Origin: Kordiimonas marina
Lineage (GTDB): Bacteria > Pseudomonadota > Alphaproteobacteria > Sphingomonadales > Kordiimonadaceae
NCBI RefSeq assembly: GCF_023006325.1
Contig: NZ_JAINDF010000008.1
Coordinates: 1 to 64,000, forward strand
Reading direction: 5' to 3'
Length of the DNA stretch: 64,000 bases
A program made the position numbers and the translations under genes. Below, piece by piece: positions 2,346-59,357 of this stretch. A model generated the notes under the pieces. The model saw only the letters and a program-made list of their open reading frames with translations, made no database searches and was not told where the DNA came from. Within the stretch, counting starts at the first letter, position 1. Every line of letters begins with the position of its first letter.

Positions 2346-3257
2346 CTAATAGGCAGGAACGGTCTCCAGACAGGTCCTGAAGACAGATAGAAACTGTTTA
2401 GCATGGCTGTTGAGCGGGTGCTCATAGGAATAGACGGCGGTCACCGGTAATTCAGGCGCGGCTTCGATTGGTCTGATAGCAAAGTTGCCCGCGCCGAAAC
2501 AGGCGGCTGCGTAGGCGGCGGTCACGCTGTCAATTATGGCGGCGCCCACGCCCTTCGCGGCAAGGTTTGCTGCGACATTGTGATTGTGGACACGGACCAG
2601 ATAGCGCGGCGTGACCCCCGCCTCATCCATCAAGCGTTCCACGGCGTTTCCAAGCGGCTCTCCTGAGAAAGTCCCAACAAGGGGATGGGCCGTGAGGGCT
2701 TCTAAAGAGAGCTTTTCCTGTTCCAGCAATGGGGACCCGGTGGGAACAACAGCAACCAGCTGAACCTTGCCCACAGTCAGGGAGCCGACCCCTGGCGTCT
2801 CCTCCATCCCGAAGGTGAAGCCCAGGTAATTCTGGCCCGCTGAGGCGGTAAGGCCGTTCAATATTTGCGCATGGTGCTGTGTGGTGACATCGATCATACA
2901 GCTGTGGGGCCGGCCCAGGAACCGGGTGATGGCTTCCGGTATCAGTTCGTGGCTCAAGGCCGGTGGCGCGGCGATACGCAGATGAGAGGTCAGGTCGGTT
3001 TTAAGCCTCTCCGCCAACGATCTGAAGACGGTGAGGGAATCCTGAATGCGCTCAGCTTCACCATAGAGAAGTTTCGCTTCCGCGGTCGGGTGCAACCGTC
3101 CACCGGTCCGGTGAAACAGGTTAAAGCCAATGGTGGCCTCGATCTGTTTCAAGCTGGCAGTGACAGCTGGCTGTGTAATACCCAGGCGGTTCGCCGCCTC
3201 GGTGACAGTGCCGCTTTTCATGACGGCATGAAATATCTCAATTTGGCGCCCGTTCAT
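2346..3257 (-). CDS. LysR-family transcriptional regulator
   Basis: A 303-residue LysR protein: winged helix-turn-helix at residues 1-60 (MNGRQIEIFHAVMKSGTVTEAA, then TQPAVTASLKQIE), and a periplasmic-binding-like effector domain from about 88 to 300. It is transcribed away from the aminotransferase-DUF849 pair across a 103-bp AT-rich gap holding an 8-bp inverted repeat (3274-3304). That is the classical arrangement for a LysR activator of the divergent operon. The natural inducer is likely the aminotransferase substrate, but this is inference. Confidence 0.9.
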   Translation of the reverse strand: MNGRQIEIFHAVMKSGTVTEAANRLGITQPAVTASLKQIEATIGFNLFHRTGGRLHPTAEAKLLYGEAERIQDSLTVFRSLAERLKTDLTSHLRIAAPPALSHELIPEAITRFLGRPHSCMIDVTTQHHAQILNGLTASAGQNYLGFTFGMEETPGVGSLTVGKVQLVAVVPTGSPLLEQEKLSLEALTAHPLVGTFSGEPLGNAVERLMDEAGVTPRYLVRVHNHNVAANLAAKGVGAAIIDSVTAAYAAACFGAGNFAIRPIEAAPELPVTAVYSYEHPLNSHAKQFLSVFRTCLETVPAY

Positions 3258-3273
3258 GCTGTAACCATAAGCA

Positions 3274-3304
3274 TAATTTATAGATAAAGGTAAAACATAA
3301 ATTA
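3274..3304. promoter_or_regulatory. AT-rich inverted repeat, likely LysR operator
   Basis: TAATTTAT (3274-3281) and ATAAATTA (3297-3304) are perfect inverted 8-mers separated by 15 bases. They lie midway between the divergent LysR and aminotransferase starts. The site is markedly AT-rich against its surroundings. Confidence 0.5.
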
Positions 3305-3360
3305 GTGGCCGCCCTGCTGCCAGGCGACAATGTGGTCCTAACGACCAAGGGGACCAAAGG

Positions 3361-4686
3361 ATGACGTCTGTTTTCTATCGGGATATGGGCAAGGCATACC
3401 CTGTCGCGGTAAGCGCCTCGGGGATGCATATTTATGATGCGGACGGCAAGGCTTACCTCGATATGTGCGGCGGCGCGGCGGTGTCCTGTCTCGGGCATCA
3501 GCACCCTGACGTTATCAGGGCTGTGAAGGCACAGCTTGATCAGATGGCCTTTGCCCACACGGCTTTCTTTTCCAGCAGGCCCCAGGAACAGCTGGCGGAA
3601 AGGCTTGTCGCACGCTTCGGTGACCCTGGGGCAAGGGCCTATTTCACCGCAGGGGGCTCCGAGGCGAATGAAACCGCGCTCAAGCTGGCCTGGCAATATT
3701 GGAAGGCCTTGGGCAGGCCTGAAAAAGCAAAGATTATCAGCCGGGACCATAGTTATCACGGCAACACGTTTGGCACCTTGTCGGTAAGCGGCAACCCGGC
3801 CCGGCGGCGCCCGATGGATGGCCTGTTGATAGAATGGCCGCGGATCGTGCCCTGCTATGCCTATCGTCATCAGGAAGCCGGTGAAGGCCCGGAAGCCTAT
3901 GGCCTGCGTGCAGCCGGCGATCTGGAAGACGCGATCAAGGCTGCCGGGGCGGAAACGGTCGCGGCTTTTATCGTCGAGCCTGTGGTCGGCGCATCCTTGG
4001 GGGCCGTATCGGCGAGCCCCGGCTATTTCAAGAAAATACGCGAAATCTGCGACCGCTACGACATTCTGCTGATCGCGGATGAGGTCATGTGTGGCTCGGG
4101 GCGGACAGGCTCTTTCTTTGCGTTTGAGCAGGAAGGTTTCAGGCCCGACATCGTGACCCTGGCCAAGGGGATCGGCGGTGGCTACCAACCGCTGGCCGCA
4201 ACCATCGCTTCTTCGAGGATTGTTGAAGCTTTACAGGAATCCCCTGCGGGCTTTTCCCACGGCCATACCTATATTGGCCATGCCTGTGCGTGCGCGGCGG
4301 GGCTCGCGGTTCAGGAGGCCTTTGAGACGTACCAGCTGTTGGAGGCTGTCCGAACCAAGGGCGCGCAGCTTCAGGACGCACTCACGGAGCGGTTTTCCGA
4401 CCATCCGAACGTTGGGGATATTCGGGGACGTGGGCTTTTCAGGGCGATTGAATTTGTCGCAGACAAGGAAACGAAAGCCCCTATAGAAAATAGTGCGGCT
4501 GTGGCTGGCAGGATAAAGGCCACGGCGATGACGCATGGCCTGATGGTCTATCCCGGCGGCAATAACGAAGAGGGTGGCAGTAGTTGCCACATCCTGCTGG
4601 CACCGCCCTATATTCTTGAGGATGAGCATATTGGTATGCTGATCAGCAGGCTTGAAGCTGTCATTGGGGAGGTTTTCGGTGACTGA
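3361..4686 (+). CDS. Class III (acetylornithine/GABA/beta-alanine type) aminotransferase
   Basis: A 441-residue fold-type I PLP enzyme. Visible landmarks are FTAGGSEANETALKLA (PLP phosphate loop), HSYHGNTFGTLSVSG, the Asp of IADEVMCGSGRTG, and the Schiff-base lysine K269 in LAKGIGGGY. Class III enzymes move the amino group of an omega- or beta-amino acid (or diamine) to pyruvate or 2-oxoglutarate. The next gene, a DUF849 enzyme, overlaps by 8 bases and would act on a beta-keto acid, so a beta-amino acid substrate yielding a 3-oxo acid is the natural guess. ATG 3361 follows AAAGG. Likely controlled by the divergent LysR. Confidence 0.88.
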   Translation: MTSVFYRDMGKAYPVAVSASGMHIYDADGKAYLDMCGGAAVSCLGHQHPDVIRAVKAQLDQMAFAHTAFFSSRPQEQLAERLVARFGDPGARAYFTAGGSEANETALKLAWQYWKALGRPEKAKIISRDHSYHGNTFGTLSVSGNPARRRPMDGLLIEWPRIVPCYAYRHQEAGEGPEAYGLRAAGDLEDAIKAAGAETVAAFIVEPVVGASLGAVSASPGYFKKIREICDRYDILLIADEVMCGSGRTGSFFAFEQEGFRPDIVTLAKGIGGGYQPLAATIASSRIVEALQESPAGFSHGHTYIGHACACAAGLAVQEAFETYQLLEAVRTKGAQLQDALTERFSDHPNVGDIRGRGLFRAIEFVADKETKAPIENSAAVAGRIKATAMTHGLMVYPGGNNEEGGSSCHILLAPPYILEDEHIGMLISRLEAVIGEVFGD

Positions 4687-5503
4687 AACACCCTGCATCT
4701 TGATGGTGGCGCCCAACGGCGCCCGGCGGACAAAAGCCGATCATACGGCGCTTCCCATGGGGCCGGCCGAATTGGCCGCGTGCGCCAGGGAGGTGTTGGA
4801 TGCGGGCGCCAGCATATTTCATTTGCATGTGCGGGACGACAATGGCGCGCATACGCTTGACACGGGGCGATACCGGGAGGCGATCAACGCCATAAGGGGC
4901 GAAGTGGGGTCAGGCCTTATCCTTCAGGTGACATCTGAAGCGGTCGGCCAGTATGGCCCCGCGGCCCAGATGGCGATGGTGCGGGACTTGCGCCCGGAAG
5001 CCGTTTCGGTCGCGCTCCGGGAACTGGTGCCGGGCATAGACGCAACGGATGCACAGCGCGCCTTCTTCGACTGGATGCGCGAGGCGGGCATTTTCTATCA
5101 GGTTATCCTGTATGACGCGGTGGATTTGGCGCGGTTTGACGACCTTCTCGATGAGGGTTTCTTTGGAGACCTTACACCATTTGTCCTGTTTGTTGCTGGA
5201 CGGTATGGGCAGGAAGCTGCGGAACCAGGAAACAATTTCGAGTATTTCCGGGGGCGTGCCGGGGCCTTGTCCTTCCCCTGGGCGGTGTGCGCGTTTGGTG
5301 CACAGGAATATGACGCGGTCCTGTTCGCGGCCCGGCAGGGTGGTCATGTCCGGGTGGGGTTCGAAAATAACCTGTGGCGCCCGGATGGGGAGCCGGTTTC
5401 AAACAATGCCGAGCTGGTTCATGAAGCCCGGCGCCAAGTGGAACTTACGGGCCGCACAGTGGCAACGGCAGACGATGTCCGCGCCATATTTAATTTTGCA
5501 TGA
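4679..5503 (+). CDS. Beta-keto acid cleavage enzyme (BKACE, DUF849)
   Basis: A 274-residue TIM-barrel Zn enzyme of the Kce/BKACE family, which condenses a 3-oxo acid with acetyl-CoA to give acetoacetate plus a new acyl-CoA. The metal ligands are visible: H48 and H50 in IFHLHVRD, and E229 in VGFENNLW. The N-terminal PNGARRTKADH segment is also typical. I chose GTG 4679, giving VTETPCILMVAPNG, because the family begins just before this motif and the codon overlaps the aminotransferase end by 8 bases, implying translational coupling. A longer reading from 4652 is less likely. The acyl substrate is unknown. Confidence 0.87.
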   Translation: MTETPCILMVAPNGARRTKADHTALPMGPAELAACAREVLDAGASIFHLHVRDDNGAHTLDTGRYREAINAIRGEVGSGLILQVTSEAVGQYGPAAQMAMVRDLRPEAVSVALRELVPGIDATDAQRAFFDWMREAGIFYQVILYDAVDLARFDDLLDEGFFGDLTPFVLFVAGRYGQEAAEPGNNFEYFRGRAGALSFPWAVCAFGAQEYDAVLFAARQGGHVRVGFENNLWRPDGEPVSNNAELVHEARRQVELTGRTVATADDVRAIFNFA

Positions 5504-5543
5504 CTGGGGCATTCTTCTGCTGTCGGCCTAGGCGGACGCTTGT

Positions 5544-5990
5544 TTACTGCTCGAGCGAGATCATTGTTGTCGTGCCCTTCACCAGGGTATTGGTGTTCAA
5601 TGTTGTGGTACGGAACGCATTCAGGTCCGCCATATGACGCCCGACAAACTCCAGCATGAAATCGAACTCACCCGACAAGGAATGAAGCCTGATGACATGT
5701 TCCTGGTCGGAAAGGGATGTCCGGAAGGCATCCAGCACGTCGGCGCTTTGTCGCTTCAGTTTGATAAAAATAAAGGCGGTGATCCCCAAGCCTAGCGCCC
5801 TTCGGTCAACTTCAAGGCGCCAGCCTTTATAGGCGTGGTGTTTCTTGAGGCGCCTTACCAGCCGCTGGGCATCGCCATCATGCTGGTGTTCGGCGCCTTT
5901 GCCGACAAACATATGCTGTGTGGGCTCCCCCATCAGGGCGGACAGGAGCGTCCAATCCGGGGCTGCCATCCATTTCAAGGGCCGTATCAT
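5544..5990 (-). CDS. Lrp/AsnC-like regulator with degenerate N-terminus
   Basis: The 148-residue protein carries a clear AsnC/RAM ligand-binding domain from about residue 65 (ALGLGITAFIFIKL ... SGEFDFMLEFVGRHMADLNAF). The N-terminal 60 residues occupy the usual helix-turn-helix place, with a recognisable RLVRRLKKHHAYKGWRLEVD linker, but they match the standard Lrp helix-turn-helix poorly. It may bind DNA unusually or act as an effector-binding partner. ATG 5990 has CGGAAAG at good spacing. It converges on the DUF849 gene and could sense the amino acid handled by that operon (inference). Confidence 0.75.
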   Translation of the reverse strand: MIRPLKWMAAPDWTLLSALMGEPTQHMFVGKGAEHQHDGDAQRLVRRLKKHHAYKGWRLEVDRRALGLGITAFIFIKLKRQSADVLDAFRTSLSDQEHVIRLHSLSGEFDFMLEFVGRHMADLNAFRTTTLNTNTLVKGTTTMISLEQ

Positions 5991-6094: not shown

Positions 6095-8248
6095 TTAGAA
6101 TTTGATCTTGGCTTCCAATGCCCAGGTGCTGGGCTGAGCACGGAACCCAATCGCGGTATCGAGACCGGAGAACGCGGTCGGGTTGAAGTCGGTGTAATAT
6201 TGTTCGTTGAAGAGGTTCTTGCCGGTGAAATAGATACCCCAGCCTTCGGTCTCAACCCCGACCCGGACGCCGAGAAGATCAACCGGGCCTTGAACGTCGG
6301 CATTATCCACCTGCCAGTATTTCTTGCCGCGGTGCTCATAATCGACGCGCGTCATCAGGTTGAGCGTATCGGTGAGCGCTGTGTCATACTGGAAGCCGGC
6401 ATTGAGCGACCAGTTGGTGGTTTTGGGTGTCTTGTTGCCGACGGTGGACGGAAGGTCCTTATTCTCCTTGATGGTGCTGTCGGTGGTACCGAGGCCGGCA
6501 AACACTTGCAGACCGGGACCGACGAGTGCCTGGACTTCCAGTTCGACACCCCAGATGTCCACCTTGTCGATATTGCCGATAATCTGGGCGGCACTGGCGG
6601 CATCGACAAAGAAGAACTGGAAGTTATCGCTGCGGGCCCGATAGACGGCGCCGTTCAGGATCAGGCGGCGATCCAGCCACGAGGTTTTGAAGCCTGCCTC
6701 GAAGTTGTCCAGATTTTCGGCCTTGAAGACAGGAATACGGACATTCGGTGCGTTAAAGCCGCCTGAGCGGAAGCCGGTGCTGAAGGTGCCGTAAATCAGT
6801 TTGCTGTCATCGAACTTGTAGGTCAGCGTTGCCTTGGGCTGGACGGAATCAAAGTCAGCCTTCCTGACGTCACCAGTTGAAAGGTCGGTCTGTTTCCGTT
6901 TGTCCAGGTCATAGCGAAGGGCACCGGAGAGGGTCAGCTTTTCGCTGATGTCATAGTCGAAGCTGCCATAGACCGCATAAGCATTGTTGTTGTTGCTCTC
7001 ATTGTGGTCGATCAGCAGGAAGCCGGTGTCGATCTGGTCGAGCTGGCTGGTGGTGTCCAGGAAGGCGCGCGTGCGCAGGTCTTTCTTGGTATTCAGGTAA
7101 TAGACCCCGGCAATCCAGCGGAAGGGGCCGCTGTTATTGGAAACCAGGCGAAATTCCTGGCTGAACAAGTCTGTTCCAAGGTCCTGGCCCTGGCCAACCT
7201 GGATACCCAGCCCTAGGAACCCGCCCGGCTTGTCGACCGGGTTGGTGAAATCCAGGTCACCCCGGTAATTTTCGGTCAGCGACGTATATCCGGTGATGCT
7301 GGTCAAGGTTGCGCTGCCCAGCTCGGCGTCGAATTTTGCCGACGTGTCGAAGATATTGCCATAGGTCAGGCCCTGGATATTTTCGCTCGGCAGGACATAG
7401 TCGTCCGCGCGGCCCGAAAAGATGACCGAGTCATAAATGGCCCCGGCCTGGAAATCCCGGTAGGAGGCGCGAAGGTCCATCGAAAGCGTGTCGTTGAAAC
7501 GCTGGGTATATTTGCCTCGTGTCTCCCAGTCATGGTCGATGAAATCTACATTTTTGCCGGTGTAGCTGTTCTGGATGCGGCCACCATCGGACTTGTAACT
7601 CCCGGCGACGCGCAGACCGCCGTCCTGACCTACGGGGGTGGAGATAACGCCGGAGACATCGACGGCGTCACCGCGGCCATAGCTGGCATCCAACTTGCCT
7701 TCGAAATGGTCGCCGGCGTTTTTCGTGACGATATTGATCGCACCGCCGATCGCGTTACGGCCGTAAAGACCGCCTTGCGGCCCCTTGAGGACTTCGATCC
7801 GCTCGATATCGAACAGGTTCATCTTGAACTGTTTCTGGCTGTTCTGGGGTACACCGTCGACGATGATGGCGACAGGCGAGTCTGCATTGTTGATTTGAGT
7901 AACGCCGCGAACCACCACGAAGGTGTTCAGATAGGTGAAGCTGTCATCGAGCGACACGTTCGGCACCATGTTGACGAAATCCTGGGACGACTTGATGCCC
8001 GCGGCTTCTATCTTGGCGTCAGAGAAAGCGTCAACCTGCATGGGAACGTCCTGCAGGCGTTCGGACCGACGCTGAGCGGTGACGACAACTTCCTCAAGTG
8101 AGGTTTCCTGGGCCGGGTCTGCCTTGGCGCTCTTGCTGTCTTTGGTGTCTGCGGCGTGGGCAGACAGGGTGGCGAAGGACGCAAGCGCGAGCGCCATGGC
8201 GATATGACTAGGACTAGAACTTGAACTGGCTTTTACTGACGGTTTCAT
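6095..8248 (-). CDS. TonB-dependent receptor
   Basis: A 717-residue outer-membrane receptor: signal peptide ending near AHA-A (residue 32), a TonB-box-like segment SLEEVVVTAQRRSERLQDVP (50-69), a plug domain (about 70-180) with VVRGV and GPQGGLYGRNAIGGAINIVTK, then a 22-strand-type barrel ending in the aromatic-terminal ALEAKIKF. ATG 8248 is preceded by GGGAGGAAAG and is preferred over upstream in-frame codons. It is the last gene of a minus-strand unit with racemase, DUF917 and HyuA-like genes, starting 20 bases after the racemase stop. It most likely imports the compound those enzymes process. Confidence 0.93.
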   Translation of the reverse strand: MKPSVKASSSSSPSHIAMALALASFATLSAHAADTKDSKSAKADPAQETSLEEVVVTAQRRSERLQDVPMQVDAFSDAKIEAAGIKSSQDFVNMVPNVSLDDSFTYLNTFVVVRGVTQINNADSPVAIIVDGVPQNSQKQFKMNLFDIERIEVLKGPQGGLYGRNAIGGAINIVTKNAGDHFEGKLDASYGRGDAVDVSGVISTPVGQDGGLRVAGSYKSDGGRIQNSYTGKNVDFIDHDWETRGKYTQRFNDTLSMDLRASYRDFQAGAIYDSVIFSGRADDYVLPSENIQGLTYGNIFDTSAKFDAELGSATLTSITGYTSLTENYRGDLDFTNPVDKPGGFLGLGIQVGQGQDLGTDLFSQEFRLVSNNSGPFRWIAGVYYLNTKKDLRTRAFLDTTSQLDQIDTGFLLIDHNESNNNNAYAVYGSFDYDISEKLTLSGALRYDLDKRKQTDLSTGDVRKADFDSVQPKATLTYKFDDSKLIYGTFSTGFRSGGFNAPNVRIPVFKAENLDNFEAGFKTSWLDRRLILNGAVYRARSDNFQFFFVDAASAAQIIGNIDKVDIWGVELEVQALVGPGLQVFAGLGTTDSTIKENKDLPSTVGNKTPKTTNWSLNAGFQYDTALTDTLNLMTRVDYEHRGKKYWQVDNADVQGPVDLLGVRVGVETEGWGIYFTGKNLFNEQYYTDFNPTAFSGLDTAIGFRAQPSTWALEAKIKF

Positions 8249-8268
8249 AACTTTCCTCCCGATTTTTA

Positions 8269-8997
8269 TTAGAATGGGTATCCTGCGATGGGCTTGATAT
8301 TTGGCGTGGCGTAACTGTGTTTGCTGTGCGAAAGCCCGGCTCTCACGAAGGCCTCGGCCATGCAAACGGCTGCTGGGATGGGGTCGATAACGGGGACATC
8401 CAGTCCTTTGCTCTTGAGGGTCGTGCTGATAGCGCTTGCGCAGCCGAGGAAACCGGTGCAGCCGAGGATGATGGTGTCGGCATGGTCCTTCTCAACAGCC
8501 TCGACAGCCTGTTCGGCCAGCTTCTGCTGCACTTCCCCGAGGCGGGCCTCAAGCTCCAGTACCGGAATGTCGATCACTCGGAGCGAAGCCATCTTGCCGG
8601 CGACACCATAGAGGGTGGCGAGATTGTCCAGCATGGGACGTACGCTTTCGACTACCGTTACGATCGAGAAGCGGTGGCCCATCATGGCTGCCATATGCAT
8701 GGAAGCTTCGCCGGGGCCGATAATCGGAATCCGCACCAGTTCCCGCGCGGCAGGCACCCCGGGGTCTCCAAGACAGTCGACGATGAGGGCATCTGCGCCG
8801 TCCTTTTCGGCTTCAATGGCGCGGGCAGCAACCCCGGGCACAGCGAGGGCATGTTCGAACTCATTCTCGATCGAGGAGGGGCCTGCCTCCAGAAGAACGT
8901 GGCTGAATTCAAGGTCCGGCCGTTTGAGAAAGTCGATGTCGGCAAGGTCCCGCACGCCCTTGGTGATGATAGGGGTGACGATACGGATATGAACCAT
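8269..8997 (-). CDS. Aspartate/glutamate (hydantoin-type) racemase
   Basis: A 242-residue cofactor-independent racemase of the Asp/Glu/hydantoin family. Both catalytic cysteines are present: C75 in IVDCLGDPG and C180 in ILGCTGFLG, the two-base arrangement that inverts an alpha-carbon. Its ATG overlaps the DUF917 stop by one base (TAATG), so translation is coupled. With a HyuA-like protein upstream, a 5-substituted hydantoin or a related cyclic amide is a reasonable but unproven substrate. An acyclic amino acid derivative is the alternative. Confidence 0.85.
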   Translation of the reverse strand: MVHIRIVTPIITKGVRDLADIDFLKRPDLEFSHVLLEAGPSSIENEFEHALAVPGVAARAIEAEKDGADALIVDCLGDPGVPAARELVRIPIIGPGEASMHMAAMMGHRFSIVTVVESVRPMLDNLATLYGVAGKMASLRVIDIPVLELEARLGEVQQKLAEQAVEAVEKDHADTIILGCTGFLGCASAISTTLKSKGLDVPVIDPIPAAVCMAEAFVRAGLSHSKHSYATPNIKPIAGYPF

Positions 8998-10100
8998 TAG
9001 TGCTTCTCCATCAGTTGGCGGATGGGAACATAGGTTTCCCCGAGGCCGAATTCCTGCGGCCCCATGACCTTAAGCGCGGCTTCTGTCTTGAGGGGCGGCG
9101 GGGCGCTGCAGCCGATTACCGCCACGCGTTGGCCGTATGCCAGCCGCTCTGTCGGGATGGCGTGGCCGGTTTCCTGGTCGACAACGGTAATGAGGTCGGG
9201 GACGACACAGCGCAGCTGGCCGTCCACATACATCACCAGGTTTTCGTTCCGGAAAATAAGTTCCGCTTCACCCTGTCCGAAGAGAGCTGAGATCATACAC
9301 CGGCCCGTAACCCAGCCCTTGCTGGTATTCCGTTCGATTTCCGTAATTTTTCCGTCGAAAAGACGGTAGGCATCCCGGTAGTAATTATGGCCTTGGAGGG
9401 CGCCGACAAGCCGTTCGATGGCAGAGCTTGCATTATCGCCCGAGTTACGGACGGCCTTGCCAATGGAGAGGGCCGCGCTGATGGTGTCGCGCACGACGCC
9501 GGTCCGGGCTTCGGTGCCGGTCATCGGATAACAGGACATGCAGAGGCTGGCCCCCATTTCTGCGACGACCGGGCGGGCGAGACGCTCTGCCTTTTTGGCG
9601 TCTTTTGTCTGGATCAACAGGCTGTTGCCATGTTCATCGGCCAGCGTCATGGGGGCGACACTGATGCCGTTTACGGCCATGGCAGTCATCTGCAGTTCCG
9701 GGAAGGCCCGGCCCATGCCATCGCCATCGACCAGCGGCAGGCCACGCATGGCGGCGTAGGCGACGGGCATCATGGAATTGCATCCGCCAATTTCGGCGGA
9801 GATGATGGCATTGGCAGACCGTCCTAGATACTGCTCGAGCAGGTTGACCGCATAATGCTGGTCCTCAACCGAAAACAGCTTTTCGATCATGACCGTCGGG
9901 GCGCCGATGGCGGCGGCCACGAAAACATTGTCCGCATCAGCCAGGTCATCGACAGAGACAAGCTTCACCGGCCCATATTTCGTAAGCGCTTCACGGCACA
10001 GCAGCATCCCCAGATAGGGATCACCACCGCCGCCGGTGCCCAGAAAGGCCGACCCGATGGCAAGGTCTTCGATATTGTCCAAAGTAATTTCGGTGGTCAT
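8997..10100 (-). CDS. DUF917 family protein
   Basis: A 367-residue DUF917 protein, recognised from the N-terminal IEDLAIGSAFLGTGGGGDPYLG loop and the conserved SAEIGGCNSMMPVAYAAMRGLPLVDGDGMGRAFPELQM block (written in parts: SAEIGGCNSM, then DGDGMGRAFPE). The family's biochemistry is largely unassigned, but members commonly sit beside hydantoinase/oxoprolinase-like genes, as here. Its start follows the HyuA stop by one base and its stop overlaps the racemase start, so the three proteins are probably made in step. No signal peptide is seen; it should be cytoplasmic. Confidence 0.88.
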   Translation of the reverse strand: MTTEITLDNIEDLAIGSAFLGTGGGGDPYLGMLLCREALTKYGPVKLVSVDDLADADNVFVAAAIGAPTVMIEKLFSVEDQHYAVNLLEQYLGRSANAIISAEIGGCNSMMPVAYAAMRGLPLVDGDGMGRAFPELQMTAMAVNGISVAPMTLADEHGNSLLIQTKDAKKAERLARPVVAEMGASLCMSCYPMTGTEARTGVVRDTISAALSIGKAVRNSGDNASSAIERLVGALQGHNYYRDAYRLFDGKITEIERNTSKGWVTGRCMISALFGQGEAELIFRNENLVMYVDGQLRCVVPDLITVVDQETGHAIPTERLAYGQRVAVIGCSAPPPLKTEAALKVMGPQEFGLGETYVPIRQLMEKH

Positions 10101-10101
10101 G

Positions 10102-11655
10102 TTACGCTTTCTCCATCACCAGATCGCCGACGGCACGGCAAACGACGCGCGTGGCACCTCCAGGCAAATATTGAAGGGGAACGGCTTCCAGGTTGACTAT
10201 TTCGATGGTGTCCGGGTTTGCCCCGGCGGCAATGGCAGCTTCCGAGGCCCGCGTTTTCGCGTCCTGAAGTGCTTCGTCCCGCGTGTCTTCTGCGATGTGG
10301 TAAATCCGGTCGACTTCACCGCTGATCTGGCCGATCGCAGCGCCGACGGCGTTTGCGACCCCGGCATGGTCAGGAGCATGGGCTTCGGATACGCCTTCAA
10401 GCGGCCGGCTGATCAGGACATGGCCGCCGCCCACCAGGATCATCGGAATATCATCTTTGGACGTCTTCATCCGGTCGATGCCGTCCTCGGCCAACCGGTG
10501 GATTGCATCTTGGGCCGCGAAGACCAGTCCGGGGTCCAACGTTTCCACGAGGCTCTTGTCCCCAAAATCAGCATTGCCGGACGCGACCGCGATATCGCTT
10601 GCGGTCAGTGTCTGGCCACCGAATATTTTGGCTTCTTCGAGAAGGCGGAACGCCACGGAGTCCGGCCCCACGGTTACTTTCCCGCCATCTGCGCGGATAC
10701 GACTGCCGCCGCCAAGACCGATGGATAGAATATCGGGCATCCGGAAATTGGTGCGGACCCCACCCACATCCACATGGACGCTGGACTGACGTGGGAACCC
10801 GTTGACCAGCACGCCCACATCGGTGGTGGTGCCGCCAATGTCGACGACGATGGCGTTCTTGAGCCCGGTAAGCCACGCCGCGCCCCGGAGGCTGTTGGTC
10901 GGGCCGGCCGCGAACGTAAGAACGGGATATTGCCGCAGTAGGCTGGTCGGCATCAGGGTGCCATCGTTCTGGCTGACAAAGAATGGCGCCGTGATGCCAA
11001 GGCTTTCCAGGGCCCGGCCGAAGGCATCCGCCACATGGTCCGCGAGGGCACGGAGGCTGGCGTTCATGATCGCGGCATTTTCCCGCTCCAGTAGGCCTAC
11101 ACGCCCCAGTTGGGACGACAGCGAAATGCTGGCGGAGGGGACAACCATCTTGATGAGCTCGGCAGCCCGTATCTCCTGCTCAGCATTGAGCTGGCTGAAG
11201 ATACCGGCGATTGCCACCTGCTCGATGCCCTTGGCCTTGATCTCTTCCGCGGCGGCTGTGATTGCCGCTTCGTCGAGGGGCGCTATCAACCGGCCATCAA
11301 ACTCATAGCCACCGCCGATCATGGCAAAGCCGCCGAAAACGGCATTCTTCATGGCGTCCGGCCAGGTGGAGAAGGGAGGGATACCGCGCCCGGCCGGAGC
11401 GCCAATACGCAGGGCAAAGACCTGAGAGAGGCCCTTGGCCTGCACGAAGGCGTTGGTGAAATGTGTCGTGCCGATCATGACGCAATCAATGGCATCACCC
11501 GTGGTTCCCGTCTCTTCAAGGATGGCGCCGATGGCCGCCTCAATCCCGTCGCTGACGTTAGCCGTGGTCGGCATCTTTCGAGAGGCAAGGACCAAGTCGC
11601 CGTCCATCAGGACTGCGTCGGTATTTGTCCCGCCTACATCTACACCAATACGCAT
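10102..11655 (-). CDS. Hydantoinase/oxoprolinase (HyuA-like) family protein
   Basis: A 517-residue ATPase-fold protein of the HyuA/OplA group. Two phosphate-binding loops are visible, MRIGVDVGGTNTDAVL at the N-terminus and VVDIGGTTTDVGVLVNG in the middle, both of the actin/HSP70/sugar-kinase type. It is shorter than the roughly 690-residue HyuA of ATP-dependent N-methylhydantoinases, and no HyuB gene is nearby, so hydantoin opening cannot simply be assumed. I start at ATG 11655, with GAGGTG just upstream, rather than TTG 11667. It is the first gene of the racemase/DUF917/TonB unit, 166 bases after the MalT-like regulator. Confidence 0.87.
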   Translation of the reverse strand: MRIGVDVGGTNTDAVLMDGDLVLASRKMPTTANVSDGIEAAIGAILEETGTTGDAIDCVMIGTTHFTNAFVQAKGLSQVFALRIGAPAGRGIPPFSTWPDAMKNAVFGGFAMIGGGYEFDGRLIAPLDEAAITAAAEEIKAKGIEQVAIAGIFSQLNAEQEIRAAELIKMVVPSASISLSSQLGRVGLLERENAAIMNASLRALADHVADAFGRALESLGITAPFFVSQNDGTLMPTSLLRQYPVLTFAAGPTNSLRGAAWLTGLKNAIVVDIGGTTTDVGVLVNGFPRQSSVHVDVGGVRTNFRMPDILSIGLGGGSRIRADGGKVTVGPDSVAFRLLEEAKIFGGQTLTASDIAVASGNADFGDKSLVETLDPGLVFAAQDAIHRLAEDGIDRMKTSKDDIPMILVGGGHVLISRPLEGVSEAHAPDHAGVANAVGAAIGQISGEVDRIYHIAEDTRDEALQDAKTRASEAAIAAGANPDTIEIVNLEAVPLQYLPGGATRVVCRAVGDLVMEKA

Positions 11656-11680
11656 AATGCACCTCAATGCTGGAAAACCT

Positions 11681-11700
11681 ACCCTGAGATTAGTCAGGGT
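11681..11700. promoter_or_regulatory. Perfect palindrome upstream of hyuA-like operon
   Basis: ACCCTGA and TCAGGGT form perfect 7-bp arms around a 6-base spacer (GATTAG), 25 bases before the HyuA start. It could be an operator (possibly for the adjacent LuxR-type regulator, whose family favours dyads of this size) or a leader hairpin. A second, smaller CCGG...CCGG dyad lies at 11737-11750. Confidence 0.45.
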
Positions 11701-11821
11701 AAGGCCAATGTTTGAAGGCGTAATACTGGTAGATTTCCGGCTAAAACCGGCAGGTTACGGACGAGCCACCGGAAAGGGAGGGGCTACTAATCATAGTAGG
11801 TGAGGAGATGATCGCTGAAGT

Positions 11822-14500
11822 TTAACCCAGCGGCAGTTTCATCTTACGGATGTGGGCGACGGCTTCATGCCGTCCGGACACATGGACCTTGGCATATATA
11901 TTTTTCAGATGATAGCGCACGGCATGTTCCGTGACGCCAAGTTCCCGGGCGATAACCTTATCCTGTTTGCCTTCCGCCAGATGGGCCAACACATCCATCT
12001 CGCGCGGGCTGAACAGCGGCTTTTCCGGAGTGGCCGCCTCGTGTGTTATCTCCTGCAGCCAGTCCTTGAGGTTTTCACCGATCAAGCGGGTCGCGGGATC
12101 CGAAGCGATCATGTCGGAAATGATCGGCCCGTTTTGTTTCAAGGGGCCGACGCCGCCGCTGGATTTGATCAGGTCCAGCCCCCGCTTTAGGAGGTCAAGC
12201 GCGTGGGATGCGTTCCCGACAACCCACTCGGAACAGGCCGCTGTGACCAACGTCCGGCATGCGGGGGCATGGAGCCCTTTCTTCAGAAAGACATCGACAA
12301 CGGTTTCCGCCAGGCCGTCGAGGTCAGCGGCTTTGCCGCGATATTGTTGCAGCAGGAAATGCGCCTTGGTCATGCTTTCCAGATCGCGCCACGCGATCGT
12401 GTCGGGCGGGCTGGCCAGGATAGCGGTTTTGTCCGGGAGGGCGGCGTCGGCCTGCGGTCCGGGGTCTTCCCCTTTGGCGGCCTGCAGCACAAGCTCCAGC
12501 CGTTTCAGCTTGGGCTGGAGGGAGGTTACCTGCTCCTGATCGACATAGTGCTGCATACTGGTGACGAGGCTGAGGGCTTCATCCAATTGCTGGCGGGCCA
12601 GATAATAGTCGATGGCGGTCGCGATCGCGGTGGCATGAAGGTCGCACCAGGCGTCATAAGCGATAAGGCGTTTGGGCAGGCCCGGCGCTATGCGGCCCAC
12701 GCTGTCGAGGTCTCCCTGGAAAAGCCGCAGTTCCGCTAGCATGACGTCGCAGGCGAGGCGGGCGCCTTCATCTTCCCGGAATGACCGGCGCTGCTTTGCC
12801 TTGGCGGCATCAAACAGCTGGGCGGCGCGGTCCTGATCGCCGATATTGAACGCGATGGCACCTTCATGCAGGTCGATATATAGCTGGCCATAGACAGAGG
12901 AGGCTTCCTCAAACCAGCGCCTGGCAAGGTCGGCCCGCCGGCTCGCTTCGTCCAGTTCTCCGGTTACAAAATTGGAGACGCACAGCGAATTATTGTAGGC
13001 ACCATCGACCAGGGCCGACATCCCGGTGCCTTCAGGCATGTGATAAAGGTCGTTCTGGTTCAGATACTCATCGGGCAGGGCGCCATACAGGACCATGAAG
13101 GGCAAGCTGATATGATGGTCCATCTCCAGCACCCCATCCGTCCCGCCCGGCCGGTCTATCTTGAAGCCTTTGGTGTGTTTCGCGATTTTGGTATAGACGT
13201 CGCGTGCTTCGGTCAGGAGGCCGCGCTTGGTCTGGATCACGCAGTGCATCAGGGCCACGCGGGGAAACGCCTGCAAGATATAATCGTTCAGGTAAACCTG
13301 TGAACTGAAAGCCCGCGATACGCCTTCCTGAATGAAGAGGCGCACGCCGCCGAAGTCTTCTATTAGCGTTCCGATCAGGTCCTCATCCTCGGACTGGTAG
13401 GCGTGTGAAAGCGCCAGGCGGAACCGGTTCTTCTGTGCCATCCATACCGCTGTTGCCCGGTGCAGGGCCCGGTATTTTTCAGGGTCCTGGCGCCTCAGGC
13501 TGTCGCGCAGGAATTCACGCAGCAGCGGGTGGATGCGGTAGGTGTCCGGCCCGTCACCGATCGGGCTGATGAGATATCCGATCTCGCCAAGGTCGTTCAG
13601 GCGGGTCAGAAGATTGTCAGTGCCTTGGGTGGCTCTTAGGGCATCGGCTTCCAACCAGTCGAGTACTGACGCCTCAAGGAGAGTGGTGCGGATTGTGTCG
13701 GTCAGCCTGCCGTCGATCTGTTCCCGGATATATTGGGAGGCAATCTCGGACGGGTCCCCGAGCCGTTTCAGGGATTCTTCCAGCGGGCAGCCGGCTTTCA
13801 TATCCATTCTGACCAGTTGGACGGCCATGGGCCAGCCAAGTGTGGCCTCCTGGATTCGGGCTGCATCCTCAAGTGAGATGCGGTCCCCGAACAGGGCCAG
13901 GATATGATGGGCGGTGAAAGCCAGTTCATCGGCGCGGACATGTAGTAGCTGCCCCTGCATGGCAAAATGGGACAGCGACAGGCCGGGATTCATCCGCCCC
14001 GCGATCAGGAAATGGACGTTGGGCGGCGCGATGCTGATCAGATGTTCAAGCGCGGCGCAGACATCCTCATTGACGACTTCCAGGTCGTCAAAAATCAGCA
14101 GCCATTTTCCGGCCTCATGCTCGAACGTGTTGGCGAGAATATTAAGGTGTTTCGTCAGGGTGACATTTTCCGGAAGCTCGTCAAAAAAGTCGGCGGAAAG
14201 GCGATTGCCGTTTCTGATAAGCGCATACGCCAGATATTCGACAAAGCTCCGGCCTGTTTCATCGGCCGAGAAAGTGAGCCAAAGCGCGGTTGCGCCTTCA
14301 TGGGCGGTCCAGGCTTCATAATGCTGGTTCAGAAGTGTTGTCTTTCCATACCCTGCAGGCGCTTCGATATGGGTGATGAAATGCAGCTTGCTGTCATGGA
14401 AAGGTGAGAAGCGGGAAAGGGTTTCACTTCCCGTGCGGGGCGGTTGAACCTTCGCGCTGACCAGCCACTCAGGAATATCCTTGGTGTGGGTGGCTGTCAT
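11822..14500 (-). CDS. MalT-like LuxR-family ATPase regulator
   Basis: An 892-residue STAND/MalT-type activator. The N-terminal NTPase has Walker A PAGYGKTT (48-55) and a Walker B-like WLLIFDDLEVV (about 132-142). A long helical, TPR-like sensor region follows. The last 65 residues are a LuxR helix-turn-helix (SPREMDVLAHLAEGKQDKVIARELGVTEHAVRYHLKNIYAK). MalT-type proteins bind inducer and ATP, oligomerise and activate transcription. It is encoded directly upstream of, and on the same strand as, the hyuA-DUF917-racemase-TonB unit, so it is the obvious candidate activator. The inducer would be the imported compound or an early product. Confidence 0.9.
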   Translation of the reverse strand: MTATHTKDIPEWLVSAKVQPPRTGSETLSRFSPFHDSKLHFITHIEAPAGYGKTTLLNQHYEAWTAHEGATALWLTFSADETGRSFVEYLAYALIRNGNRLSADFFDELPENVTLTKHLNILANTFEHEAGKWLLIFDDLEVVNEDVCAALEHLISIAPPNVHFLIAGRMNPGLSLSHFAMQGQLLHVRADELAFTAHHILALFGDRISLEDAARIQEATLGWPMAVQLVRMDMKAGCPLEESLKRLGDPSEIASQYIREQIDGRLTDTIRTTLLEASVLDWLEADALRATQGTDNLLTRLNDLGEIGYLISPIGDGPDTYRIHPLLREFLRDSLRRQDPEKYRALHRATAVWMAQKNRFRLALSHAYQSEDEDLIGTLIEDFGGVRLFIQEGVSRAFSSQVYLNDYILQAFPRVALMHCVIQTKRGLLTEARDVYTKIAKHTKGFKIDRPGGTDGVLEMDHHISLPFMVLYGALPDEYLNQNDLYHMPEGTGMSALVDGAYNNSLCVSNFVTGELDEASRRADLARRWFEEASSVYGQLYIDLHEGAIAFNIGDQDRAAQLFDAAKAKQRRSFREDEGARLACDVMLAELRLFQGDLDSVGRIAPGLPKRLIAYDAWCDLHATAIATAIDYYLARQQLDEALSLVTSMQHYVDQEQVTSLQPKLKRLELVLQAAKGEDPGPQADAALPDKTAILASPPDTIAWRDLESMTKAHFLLQQYRGKAADLDGLAETVVDVFLKKGLHAPACRTLVTAACSEWVVGNASHALDLLKRGLDLIKSSGGVGPLKQNGPIISDMIASDPATRLIGENLKDWLQEITHEAATPEKPLFSPREMDVLAHLAEGKQDKVIARELGVTEHAVRYHLKNIYAKVHVSGRHEAVAHIRKMKLPLG

Positions 14501-18518: not shown

Positions 18519-19259
18519 ATGTTGGCTCTGAAACGATCTGCCTTTATGGCCCTTTATGCGCTTTTGGCGCTCATCCCGGCCACGGCCGCCCATGCCGCCG
18601 CGACCCTGGAGGTCAGTCCAATCCGCATTGTTCTGACCAAGGGCACGCCGGTTGCTGTGGTTCATGTCCATAACCAGGGCCGGGCGAAGGCTGTGGTTCA
18701 ATTGAGGACACTGTCCTGGGACCAGAAAAATGGTGAGGATGTCTATGGTGACGGCAATTCCCTGATCGCTTGCCCGCCGGTTTTCTCGCTGGAGCCGGGG
18801 CAGGATCAAGTCGTCCGGATCGGCCTTGTCGAACAGCCTGAGAGCTGGAATATCGAGCGCGCGTTCCGCCTGTTCGTCCAGGAAGTGCCGCCGCCGCCCG
18901 AAGGTGGTGGGCGCCAGGTTCAGCTGACCATCCGTATCAGCGTTCCGGTGTTCCTGCAGCCGATGAAACCGCATCGCCCCGATCTTACCTGGAAGCTTGA
19001 TGACCGCGGCAAGGACGGGATGTGGATGACGGTTCAGAACAACGGCAACATGCACGCGCTTCTGACCGGTGTCCGGCTTCATACCAATGAAGCGCTGATC
19101 TTTGAGGCGGCAATGCATAAATATGTGTTGCCTGGGTCAACCATGTCCTGGCGTCTTGATGAGATCAAGCCGATGCTGCAGGCCGTGCCTTCCCGCGTTG
19201 CAATGACGGTTGCGACCGACCAAGGCTCATACCAGGAAACTCTTCCGGTTAATAAATGA
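18519..19259 (+). CDS. Periplasmic pilus chaperone (CsuC-like)
   Basis: A 246-residue PapD-type chaperone with signal peptide (ending HAA-A) and two immunoglobulin-like domains. The G1-strand region (VQLTIRISVPVFLQP) and the domain-1 opening LEVSPIRIVLTKG are typical. It caps pilin subunits by donor-strand complementation and hands them to the usher. ATG 18519, with GAGAAA before it, is preferred to TTG 18498. Its stop overlaps the usher ATG (ATGA), so the two are translationally coupled. Confidence 0.9.
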   Translation: MLALKRSAFMALYALLALIPATAAHAAATLEVSPIRIVLTKGTPVAVVHVHNQGRAKAVVQLRTLSWDQKNGEDVYGDGNSLIACPPVFSLEPGQDQVVRIGLVEQPESWNIERAFRLFVQEVPPPPEGGGRQVQLTIRISVPVFLQPMKPHRPDLTWKLDDRGKDGMWMTVQNNGNMHALLTGVRLHTNEALIFEAAMHKYVLPGSTMSWRLDEIKPMLQAVPSRVAMTVATDQGSYQETLPVNK

Positions 19260-21568
19260 TACGCTGGGGCAAGGGCCTGCCAATATTATTGGCGGTGGGC
19301 CTTCTTGCCTGGGTGGGGATAACTGCACCCGGCGCCCGGGCTGCTGAAGCCCCGATCCTTTACTTCGTGACCATCACCGTCAACGATGTGGACCGGAGCG
19401 GCGTCTACCCGGCGCTTGCTCGTGGTGACGAGTTTGCGCTGGGGGTTGAAGCCTTCCGGACGCTCGGGTTTTTGGTGCCGGAAGTTACGCCGGAAGATTA
19501 TCACGGTCAGCAGTATCTGCCCCTGTCGGCGCTCAAGGGGGCATCCTACATATTCGACAGCCAGCACCTCAGCCTCAAAATAACCTGCAAGGCAGTCTGT
19601 TTTCCAGGCTCCGGTGTGACAGGTGTCTGGCAACCGCCCAAGGTAGACCCGACCCCGTTTGGCGCATTCCTGAATTATGACCTGGTGGCGGAGAAGAACA
19701 CGAGCGCAAATTATATCGGCGCGCTTACGGAACTGGGTGTCTTTTCCGAGCATGGCACCGGCATCATGACGGCGGCGGCCAGCCATCAGAGTTCCGATAC
19801 CAGCCTCACCCGCCTGGAAACCAGCTGGACCATCGACCGCGCGGAAAAGCGTCAGCGCTGGCGCTTTGGTGACAGCATCACGGAGCCGGGCGGCTGGGGT
19901 CGGGCCTCGCGGTTCGGCGGTATCCAGTTCGGCACGGATTTCAGCCTTCAGCCGGGCTTTGTCACCTTCCCGACACCGACGATCCTGGGGGAGGCGTCCC
20001 TCCCGTCCACGGCGGACATTTATGTCAATGGTGTCCAGCGGTCGAGTGTTCAGGTGGAACCTGGGCCCTTCACCATCGAACAGCCGCCGGTCATTACCGG
20101 GTCGGGGGACCTCAAGGTCGTGGTCCGGGACCTTCTGGGCCGTGAAACAGTGCTTATCCAGCCTTTCTATGCCAGCCGCAACCTGCTCCGGCGCGGGCTT
20201 GCCAGCTTTTCGGTCGAAGCCGGTGCCTTGCGCCAGAATTACGGTATCGGCAGTTTCGATTATGGAGATGTCTTTGTCTCCGGCAGTTTCCGCAAAGGGT
20301 TTAGCGACCATCTGACAGCGGGTCTTCATGTTGAAGCATCCGGAAAACGTGCGGGGATCGGCCCCAATATCGATTGGCAGATGCCCTTTGGCGGTATCCT
20401 CTCCGCGGCGACAGCCGTGAGCGTCAATCACGGGCGTTTCGGTGCGATCCTGCAAACCAATTTCAATTGGACGTCACATAATTTTGGGGTTCAGGTCTCG
20501 CACGAGATGACGACAAAAGACTTCGCCCGTCTGGGGACGGCTGAGGGCGTGCGGGAAGCGCGGATGCGCACGAGCGCGAACGCCGGGCTGGATCTGTCCC
20601 GCTATGGTGCCGTTTCGCTCAACTATACCCGTGTGGATGAGCGCGACAGTGACGATTTCGAAATCGTTAGCGCCAACTATTCCAAGCGGGTGGGTAATTT
20701 GGGGACGCTGGGGGTCAATGCCTCCAAAAGTTTCGGCGCCTTTGCCGACACCATGCTCTATATCAGTTTCACCACCCGGCTTGGGGACAGGACCACCGGT
20801 AGCGCCAGTCTGGATAGGAGTGCAGGTCAATGGACCGGCACGGCGCGCGTGACGAACAGCGCCCCCTATGAGGGCGGGTTCGGCTACCGGGCGGAGGCAA
20901 GCCGTGACCAGACACAGCGCGGCCGTGCCGGTGTTACCTACGAAGGCAGCCATGGCCGCCTTGACCTGGATGTCAGCAAGACACAAAGCGGCGAAGCGGC
21001 CCGGCTGGGTGCGCGCGGTGGCGTTATCTTCATCGGCGGGGACACCTATATGACCCGCACGGTCGATGAAAGCTTTGCGCTTGTGGAAGTGGGGGATTTC
21101 GAAGGCATCGGTGTCCTCAAGGAAAACCGCCGGGTAACCGAGACCAATGACAAAGGCCGGGCGCTGATCACCGGCCTTCGGGCCTTTGAGGAAAACCGCA
21201 TCAGCATCGACCCGCTTGACCTGCCGCTGTCCGCCGATATCGGCACGTCGGCCATGGTCCGGGTGCCCCGGCGCCGGAGCGGGGTCGTCGCCGCGTTCCC
21301 GATCGGCCGTGTCCGGTCCGCCGTTGCCCGGATTGTCGATGTGTCGGGAACCCCCCTCAAGCCGGGAACAATGATGCATGCCCTGGATGGCGGCAGTGAT
21401 TTTCCTGTCGGATTCGGGGGCGAAGTCTATATGATGGGACTGACGAAACCGATGCGGTTCGAGGCCCGCCTGAAAACGGGTGCATGCCGGATCACCATTC
21501 CGGCGGTTGCGGCCTCGCCCGTGCCGATCCGATTGGGGGTGATTGTCTGTAAAGGAGACAGTCGATGA
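19256..21568 (+). CDS. Outer-membrane pilus usher (CsuD-like)
   Basis: A 770-residue usher: signal peptide (to about residue 28), N-terminal chaperone-binding domain (EAPILYFVTITVND ... FRTLGF), the beta-barrel and plug segment with STADIYVNGVQRSSVQVEPGPF, and a C-terminal domain (MRFEARLKTGACRI). It forms the secretion channel through which Csu-type pilus subunits are assembled. ATGA overlaps at both ends, with chaperone upstream and pilin downstream, show a tightly coupled operon. Confidence 0.92.
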   Translation: MIRWGKGLPILLAVGLLAWVGITAPGARAAEAPILYFVTITVNDVDRSGVYPALARGDEFALGVEAFRTLGFLVPEVTPEDYHGQQYLPLSALKGASYIFDSQHLSLKITCKAVCFPGSGVTGVWQPPKVDPTPFGAFLNYDLVAEKNTSANYIGALTELGVFSEHGTGIMTAAASHQSSDTSLTRLETSWTIDRAEKRQRWRFGDSITEPGGWGRASRFGGIQFGTDFSLQPGFVTFPTPTILGEASLPSTADIYVNGVQRSSVQVEPGPFTIEQPPVITGSGDLKVVVRDLLGRETVLIQPFYASRNLLRRGLASFSVEAGALRQNYGIGSFDYGDVFVSGSFRKGFSDHLTAGLHVEASGKRAGIGPNIDWQMPFGGILSAATAVSVNHGRFGAILQTNFNWTSHNFGVQVSHEMTTKDFARLGTAEGVREARMRTSANAGLDLSRYGAVSLNYTRVDERDSDDFEIVSANYSKRVGNLGTLGVNASKSFGAFADTMLYISFTTRLGDRTTGSASLDRSAGQWTGTARVTNSAPYEGGFGYRAEASRDQTQRGRAGVTYEGSHGRLDLDVSKTQSGEAARLGARGGVIFIGGDTYMTRTVDESFALVEVGDFEGIGVLKENRRVTETNDKGRALITGLRAFEENRISIDPLDLPLSADIGTSAMVRVPRRRSGVVAAFPIGRVRSAVARIVDVSGTPLKPGTMMHALDGGSDFPVGFGGEVYMMGLTKPMRFEARLKTGACRITIPAVAASPVPIRLGVIVCKGDSR

Positions 21569-58035: not shown

Positions 58036-59357
58036 TCGTGGCGGATGCCAGCCTCGATGGTTGGCTTGCCGTCTTCCTTATAGAGCACGCCGCCCTTCAT
58101 CACGGCGGCGACATGCTCGACGAGGCGCACGTTCTTCATCAGGTCACCATCGACCGCGATGATATCGGCATATTTGCCGGGTGCGATGGAGCCGACTTTC
58201 TTCTCCCAACCGAGGAGCTCGGCCGCTGAAAGCGTGGCGGAACGGATCGCCTGCATCGGCGTCATGCCCCACTTGACCATATAGGCCATCTGGCGGCCGT
58301 TGAGCCCATGCGGATAGACGCCGGCATCGGTGCCGTAGGCGATCTTGACACCCGCCTTCACCGCCTTGCGGAAGCCTTCGCGCTGGGCCTCGGTGGTTTC
58401 GTCATTCTTGCGGAGCTGCTCTTCCGGCCAATGTTCGGCGCGGCCAACGGTGCCAATATAGTCGCCGTTATAAATGTCAGCCACGAGCCACGTGCCATGC
58501 TTTTTCATGAGCGCGATGCCTTCGTCGTCGATCAAGGAGCCATGCTCGATCGAGCGCACACCGGCGCGGACAGCATTCTTGATGCCCTCGGCGCCGTGGG
58601 CATGGCTCGCGACATAGATGCCGTAGTGGCTGGCCTCGACCACGGCGGCATGAAGCTCTTCCTCGCTCAGTTCCGGGGCGCCGGGTTCGGTGCCGTTGGT
58701 GAGCACGGCACCGGTTGCCAGCGTCTTGATGAAGGTGGCGCCGTGTTGGATCAGCGTGCGCACCTTCTCCCGGACTTCGTCGGCGTTGCGGACGACACCG
58801 AAGCGCATGTCCGCCGGGATGCCGACATCCGGGATCTGCCCGGTGATGGCGCCTGCGCCGCCGGGGACGGTGATATAGGCGCCGACCACCGACATACGCG
58901 GGCCGATGATGGTGCCATTGTTGATAGCGTTCTTGATTGCCACATCGGTGAAGGCGTGCCAGGGGCCGACATCGCGGATAGTGGTGAAACCGGCCAACAG
59001 CGTGTTGCGGGCATTCTTCACGCCCGACAGCGCCGATTCAGCCGCCGAATGCATCAGGGGTTCGAGTGGATTGTTGGACTCGCTATCGCCATAGTCCGAG
59101 ATGTGCGTATGCATATCCATGAGGCCGGGCAGCACGGTCCGGGAAGACCAGTCCAGTATCTTTGCGCCTGCGGGGGCCCCGTGCCAGGGGGCGACCGCGG
59201 TGATACGGTCGCCTTCGACCGTGATCATCTGGTCCTTGAGGACTTGCCCTTTCTCCACATCGATAAGCTTTCCGGCGTGGATGACGGTTACGTCTGCGGC
59301 GCGGACCGGCAGGGCCGCCAGCATCGCGGCGAACAGGGTGGCAAGGATAAGGCGCAT
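58032..59357 (-). CDS. Exported amidohydrolase (imidazolonepropionase/Xaa-Pro-type)
   Basis: A 441-residue metal-dependent amidohydrolase with signal peptide (cut near VRA-A). The metal motifs are DMHTHISDYG early, SHAHGAEGIKNAV in the middle and AYGTDAGVYPHG late. This branch includes imidazolonepropionase-like enzymes and bacterial carboxypeptidases for Xaa-Arg/Lys and Xaa-Pro dipeptides; the exact substrate is unknown. Its stop overlaps the TMADH-like gene's stop by 4 bases (convergent). The M20 peptidase is divergent from it. Confidence 0.88.
   Translation of the reverse strand: MRLILATLFAAMLAALPVRAADVTVIHAGKLIDVEKGQVLKDQMITVEGDRITAVAPWHGAPAGAKILDWSSRTVLPGLMDMHTHISDYGDSESNNPLEPLMHSAAESALSGVKNARNTLLAGFTTIRDVGPWHAFTDVAIKNAINNGTIIGPRMSVVGAYITVPGGAGAITGQIPDVGIPADMRFGVVRNADEVREKVRTLIQHGATFIKTLATGAVLTNGTEPGAPELSEEELHAAVVEASHYGIYVASHAHGAEGIKNAVRAGVRSIEHGSLIDDEGIALMKKHGTWLVADIYNGDYIGTVGRAEHWPEEQLRKNDETTEAQREGFRKAVKAGVKIAYGTDAGVYPHGLNGRQMAYMVKWGMTPMQAIRSATLSAAELLGWEKKVGSIAPGKYADIIAVDGDLMKNVRLVEHVAAVMKGGVLYKEDGKPTIEAGIRHD

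Follow-up and report, generated by a model that had tools for sequence, protein, structure and literature searches.

A recurring HyuA-DUF917-racemase-TonB receptor cassette in Kordiimonas marina with a LAL regulator and a likely palindromic operator

Introduction

What does an operon do in which a hydantoinase-type ATPase subunit (HyuA) is followed by a DUF917 protein in the place of HyuB, together with a racemase, a TonB-dependent outer-membrane receptor (TBDR) and a large regulator? We address this for a 64-kb stretch of the Kordiimonas marina genome, called the window here, for which a first-pass annotation had proposed uptake and breakdown of an unassigned cyclic amide or D-amino acid derivative. 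For the HyuAB family it has been proposed that the HyuA-type subunit phosphorylates the amide and that HyuB, with an Asp-His-Asp-His metal site, completes hydrolysis (PMC8453981). A 2024 study (PMC11055893) still described DUF917 as lacking experimental characterisation, and a 2013 study described it as unclear which enzymes hydrolyse diketopiperazines (PMC3852281). Our literature search found no paper on thiohydantoin desulfurase, none on an ATP-dependent diketopiperazine hydrolase, and nothing on a hydantoinase, a racemase, a LuxR regulator and a TonB receptor together.

Results

Gene layout

All five genes lie on the minus strand at the coordinates first annotated, and the tight packing described for them is present. 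The regulator gene (11822-14500; 892 aa) is followed by hyuA, whose open reading frame spans 11667-10102 with the ATG at 11655 being a more likely start than 11667 (gene 10102-11655; 517 aa). The DUF917 gene (8997-10100; 367 aa) starts one base past hyuA and overlaps the racemase gene (8269-8997; 242 aa) by one base (TAATG). The TBDR frame runs from 8365 to 6095, and its start is almost surely the ATG at 8248 and not 8365, as this ATG stands behind GGGAGGAAAG, a good ribosome-binding site, 20 bases past the racemase stop, and yields a protein of 717 aa (6095-8248) with a signal peptide, a TonB box (LEEVVVTAQRR), and plug and beta-barrel domains (PF07715 and PF00593). The four genes from hyuA to the TBDR look like one transcription unit. 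Recurrence of the set across numerous genomes shows that it is not a chance arrangement.

Several other features were seen around the operon. Adjoining the TBDR end, positions 2346-5990 hold a LysR regulator, a class-III aminotransferase, a BKACE protein and an AsnC-type regulator (PF01037, 5544-5990). We considered the aminotransferase, BKACE and LysR genes as members of the unit and rejected them, since the family's related loci gave no matches to them except in L039, where BKACE and LysR each had a single weak match. The stretch as a whole, the AsnC-type gene included, is not conserved alongside the operon. An outer-membrane usher protein (PF00577) is encoded on the plus strand at 19256-21568. 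Roughly 25 bases upstream of the hyuA start codon, at 11680-11701, is a perfect inverted repeat, TACCCTGA-CTAATC-TCAGGGTA, that could be a weak second regulatory site or an RNA hairpin and that was not seen in the corresponding gap of locus L036.

A short HyuA paired with DUF917

The HyuA model (pLDDT 90.4) matched the caprolactamase subunit CapA (6yra) with a Z score of 29.8 over 501 residues, followed by acetophenone and acetone carboxylase subunits and N-methylhydantoinase, which places it with the ASKHA ATPase subunits of ATP-dependent lactamases and hydantoinases. The full-length matches to CapA, Apc and acetone carboxylase range from Z 25 to 30, with activase-type ASKHA proteins reaching 16-17. 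Both phosphate-binding motifs are conserved in 30 relatives, with phosphate-1 (DxGGTxTD) reading DVGGTNTD and phosphate-2 (DxGGT) reading DIGGTTTD in place of DIGGTTAK. The adenosine motif GxxPGP (as defined in PMC8453981) is absent, the short HyuA family having an SVxxRL-like sequence at that place, and the C-terminal domain (Hydant_A_C) is missing. Relative to CapAB, N-methylhydantoinase, HyuAB and 5-oxoprolinase, the window protein therefore shares the CapA fold over nearly its whole length and both phosphate-binding motifs, but differs in lacking Hydant_A_C, GxxPGP and a HyuB. As the first-pass annotation had observed, the operon encodes no HyuB, and the only other HyuA domain of the genome is in a 1222-aa reading frame on contig C20, which is as long as a 5-oxoprolinase in which HyuA and HyuB are fused. 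With this separate protein encoded elsewhere, we consider 5-oxoproline unlikely as the substrate and set it aside.

DUF917, the putative HyuA partner, carries PF06032 and PF20906, and its model (pLDDT 93) gave one clear structural match, 2o3i (Z 40.7, 25% identity). Across 33 relatives the invariant polar residues include Asp27, Glu73, Glu103, Asn108, Asp127, Arg131, Glu172, Arg176, Lys251, Asn285, Glu286, Asp302, Glu318, Tyr322 and Arg325; no histidine is invariant among them, on which ground we rejected a HyuB-like metal enzyme. The set of structures used for comparison yielded no HyuB-like match either, a result that leaves room for one. The first-pass statement that DUF917 has no firm reaction stands for this protein and needs amending for its family, for which the Pfam name "S-Me-THD" and two NCBIfam models of S-methyl-thiohydantoin and thiohydantoin desulfurases (NF058532 and NF058529) exist. 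The window protein has the same two domains, but it is coupled to HyuA and falls far below both equivalog cut-offs (95.5 against 450 bits and 80.6 against 440 bits), such that a true thiohydantoin desulfurase was rejected. Because GxxPGP and the C-terminal domain are absent from HyuA and DUF917 has no invariant histidine, the HyuAB mechanism is not simply transferable to this pair.

The third enzyme belongs to the Asp/Glu/hydantoin racemase family (PF01177), with its catalytic-type Cys75 and Cys180 aligning with the two positions that are replaced in 3qvk.

The regulator and its linkage to the enzymes

The regulator is of the LAL (MalT) type, being about 900 aa long with an N-terminal STAND NTPase region (P-loop APAGYGKTT from residue 47), a helical sensor region and a C-terminal LuxR/GerE helix-turn-helix (HTH) domain, and in structure comparison it matched MalT (8bob), with its HTH matching NarL. 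It is not MalT proper, as it scored 195 bits against the MalT model NF003420, whose equivalog cut-off is 537.

DUF917 is present in 17 of 29 genomes of the same GTDB family, in most cases adjoining a short HyuA, and seven family loci (L036-L041 and L043) link LAL, HyuA, DUF917 and TBDR. In a wider scan of named genomes 74 of 80 loci had HyuA no more than 6 kb from DUF917, and 26 of 39 Pseudomonadota loci versus 0 of 41 others had an LAL within 6 kb of the pair, the latter count being subject to the caveat that proteobacterial sequences were the basis of the LAL profile. A lack of linkage in other genomes, which the first-pass annotation had named as refuting its proposal, is thus not what we observed. 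The regulator is thus linked to these enzymes well beyond Kordiimonas, with the linked taxa including Sphingopyxis, Novosphingobium, Hephaestia, Hyphomonas, Henriciella, Parvularcula, Martelella, Agrobacterium and gammaproteobacterial MAGs. The non-proteobacterial core consists of an NCS1 permease, HyuA and DUF917 (Actinobacteria 12/12, Firmicutes 11/14). On a tree of 51 LALs the label "linked to HyuA/DUF917" required 5 changes, compared with 13.3 in shuffles, and one supported set held 28 rows of which 27 were linked; the remaining row (L188, genome G392) comes from a genome with HyuA-DUF917 on another contig.

Comparison with Sphingopyxis, Novosphingobium and Hephaestia (L102-L105) revealed enzymes that are 56-69% identical to those of the window and LALs that are 23% identical, with HTH domains at 38-53% and TBDRs at either 66-69% or about 27%. 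The sensor and the receptor therefore change, and the enzymes and the recognition element stay. The window enzymes are closer to those of the sphingomonads than to most Kordiimonas copies, and the pattern suggests transfer with either replacement or fast divergence of regulator and receptor. Other family members of these proteins occur in further settings: at L232 (G004:C1 ~1646185-1654000), in the vicinity of a HyuA-DUF917 operon, a second, divergent LAL adjoins a TBDR, a histone-deacetylase-like protein and an amidase, and Kordiimonas and relatives also have distant DUF917 proteins with N-terminal extensions and no HyuA neighbour (L052-L055).

A palindrome upstream of hyuA

Reading the LAL-hyuA gaps side by side, we noticed a palindrome, CTAC-N8-GTAG. 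In the window it lies between the LAL stop codon and hyuA as CTACTATGATTAGTAG (11784-11799), 129 bp upstream of hyuA, and is the sole exact match in the 64 kb (0.22 expected). In the 3.68-Mb genome the stricter pattern CTACYN6RGTAG is found twice, at the window site and at C11:312775, with the latter being inside an open reading frame and taken as chance. Read backwards, the same pattern occurs at 84 places in this genome (G000), and the imbalance is similar in other searched genomes of the family.

Exact sites were found in 14 of 36 LAL-linked loci (17 sites), nearly all before hyuA, LAL, TBDR or racemase genes. The 67 loci classed as unlinked held six, one of which (L164) lies behind an LAL fragment and before a racemase gene, with none of the others being close upstream of hyuA or DUF917. 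When sites were scored with a matrix trained without the locus being scored, 17 of the 37 LAL-linked loci had a best site of at least 15, a score attained by none of the 66 others, whose best was 13.9 (Fisher p = 1.4e-9, which is optimistic, as are p-values on these loci generally, since they were sampled by DUF917 similarity and are related to each other). The window site scored 16.0, with the runner-up at 9.3. As 20 of the 37 LAL-linked loci have no strong palindrome, the motif covers part of the family.

These sequence comparisons indicate that CTAC-N8-GTAG is likely the LAL operator. NarL-type HTHs typically recognise inverted TAC...GTA half-sites, and the predicted palindrome is NarL-like in this respect and not a MalT box. 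The palindrome might instead be a weak LAL terminator or another regulator's site, with the adjacency of LAL and operon reflecting co-transfer and not regulation, and its position directly past the LAL stop codon in several loci would fit this. We regard that account as very improbable, however, because the palindrome has no T-run, tracks LALs even where the operon is of the HyuAB type (see below), and also precedes LAL, TBDR and racemase genes that are transcribed separately. Where the transcription unit is split, sites precede both hyuA and LAL (L039) or both hyuA and TBDR (L040), and L104 has sites both in the LAL-hyuA gap and in a divergent LAL/racemase gap; a near-match lies upstream of the TBDR in L038. 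Recurrent linkage, clustering of the LALs and the conserved palindrome together support a tie between regulator and operon, as the first-pass annotation had supposed.

Sister islands with HyuB

A palindrome search across 15 family genomes revealed sites also behind unlinked LALs. At three loci in other Kordiimonas genomes (L220, L222, L223) the order is LAL, cyclophilin (PF00160), palindrome, TBDR, full HyuA, HyuB and an M38 amidohydrolase resembling Xaa-Pro dipeptidase; another Kordiimonas island (L221) has this layout with HyuAB twice and an exact palindrome, and two more (L227, L228) have the gene order with no exact palindrome. The layout of LAL, palindrome and TBDR thus also occurs with a classical HyuB, and therefore the control layout is common to the HyuB and DUF917 versions. 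By analogy, these islands are the best argument that DUF917 may substitute for HyuB and that the product may be a dipeptide.

Neighbouring functions that bear on the substrate

Dipeptidases recur beside the module: LAL-linked loci hold six M19 dipeptidases against 0.53 expected at Kordiimonas-family density, Xaa-Pro-dipeptidase-like M38 enzymes occur in L043, L107 and L169, and a PepQ-like M24 gene in L103. Near L105 there are amino-acid catabolism genes, namely a biopterin-dependent aromatic amino acid hydroxylase, an aminotransferase and a fumarylacetoacetase. The operon of the window itself has no dipeptidase. Some 45 kb away, at 58032-59357 on the minus strand, is an amidohydrolase above the cut-off of the Xaa-Pro dipeptidase model NF051886 (539 against 500 bits), which is a candidate for the next step in a prolyl-dipeptide pathway. 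No N-carbamoylase passed the TIGR01879 cut-off, either in the genome itself or in those of the four sphingomonads that have the closest enzymes (L102-L105), and none was found within 10 kb of the operon in our G-numbered genomes.

With its CapA-like HyuA and two-cysteine racemase, and with NCS1 permeases and dipeptidases beside its relatives, the operon supports the catabolic, cyclic-amide half of the role first proposed for it. The uptake half is incomplete, as the operon encodes no inner-membrane importer, no inner-membrane transporter was identified, and the NCS1 permease found beside many relatives was not found in the genome.

Discussion

We interpret the locus as an inducible cassette for the uptake and opening of a small cyclic amide derived from amino acids, with a 2,5-diketopiperazine (cyclic dipeptide) as the most likely substrate, a reading to which we give about an even chance. 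The TBDR would carry the cyclic amide across the outer membrane, and inside the cell, which it would have to reach through the inner membrane by some further route, the two-cysteine racemase would epimerise it where needed. HyuA with ATP would then phosphorylate, and so activate, a cis-amide of the ring, and DUF917, standing in the place of HyuB, would finish the hydrolysis, and dipeptidases of the cell could split the resulting linear dipeptide. The LAL would sense substrate or product, multimerise with ATP and bind the palindrome upstream of hyuA, which may activate hyuA-DUF917-racemase-TBDR as a whole.

The same regulation and enzymes could also serve a 5-substituted hydantoin or allantoin-like ring, with the racemase equilibrating its enantiomers and HyuA plus DUF917 yielding an N-carbamoyl amino acid. 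The racemase is closest in the PDB to hydantoin/allantoin racemases, the NCS1-type permeases beside relatives would suit such a ring, and (thio)hydantoins are the substrates of the two DUF917 subfamilies that have been named. We nonetheless favour it less and think it rather unlikely, because dipeptidases, not carbamoylases, recur beside the module and no carbamoylase passed the cut-off in the genome; we infer that a cyclic dipeptide is the more likely substrate. More distant still is an account in which HyuA is no amide kinase and acts as an ASKHA-type activase or chaperone for DUF917, which would itself perform a desulfuration, lyase or hydration reaction on a thio- or imino-heterocycle. The loss of GxxPGP, the replacement of DIGGTTAK, the match of activase-type proteins to the HyuA model and the desulfurases among DUF917 relatives all speak for this, but the activase matches are far weaker than the full-length ones to the CapA group, and the shared regulatory layout also occurs with true HyuAB and a dipeptidase, which makes it improbable.

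The locus has partial likenesses to known systems. Its parts and layout are of known kinds, and what is new is their combination with an LAL lineage of their own and a conserved palindrome, and a DUF917 protein where HyuB would stand. The hydantoin genes of Pseudomonas sp. NS671 include a racemase and a permease. With the hyuABC genes of that strain (PMC8453981) the window shares the HyuA-type ATPase and the hydantoin-type racemase, and its relatives carry an NCS1 permease, but the window operon has neither HyuB nor the HyuC carbamoylase and does have a TBDR and an LAL. In clusters around cyclodipeptide-oxidase-like enzymes, DUF917, hydantoin racemase and transporters are enriched together as in the window, whereas no LAL, TBDR or operator is described in the available text of that study (PMC11055893) and the window operon has no such oxidase. 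The nitroreductase of rhizobial loci was considered as a proven cyclodipeptide oxidase and rejected, its PDB matches being general nitroreductases only.

More broadly, and tentatively, HyuA-DUF917 may be a second form of ATP-dependent cyclic-amide hydrolase, distributed in bacteria and archaea, whose main job would be the opening of cyclic dipeptides, with a dedicated proteobacterial LAL lineage using CTAC-N8-GTAG to control the DUF917 and the HyuB versions alike, along with TonB receptors matched to them. The recognition and breakdown of diketopiperazines and similar cyclic amides by bacteria are poorly defined, and a cassette that recurs and brings its sensor, palindrome, receptor and enzymes with it is a directly testable system in which the palindrome could be used as a reporter for the true inducer and HyuA and DUF917 could be assayed together.
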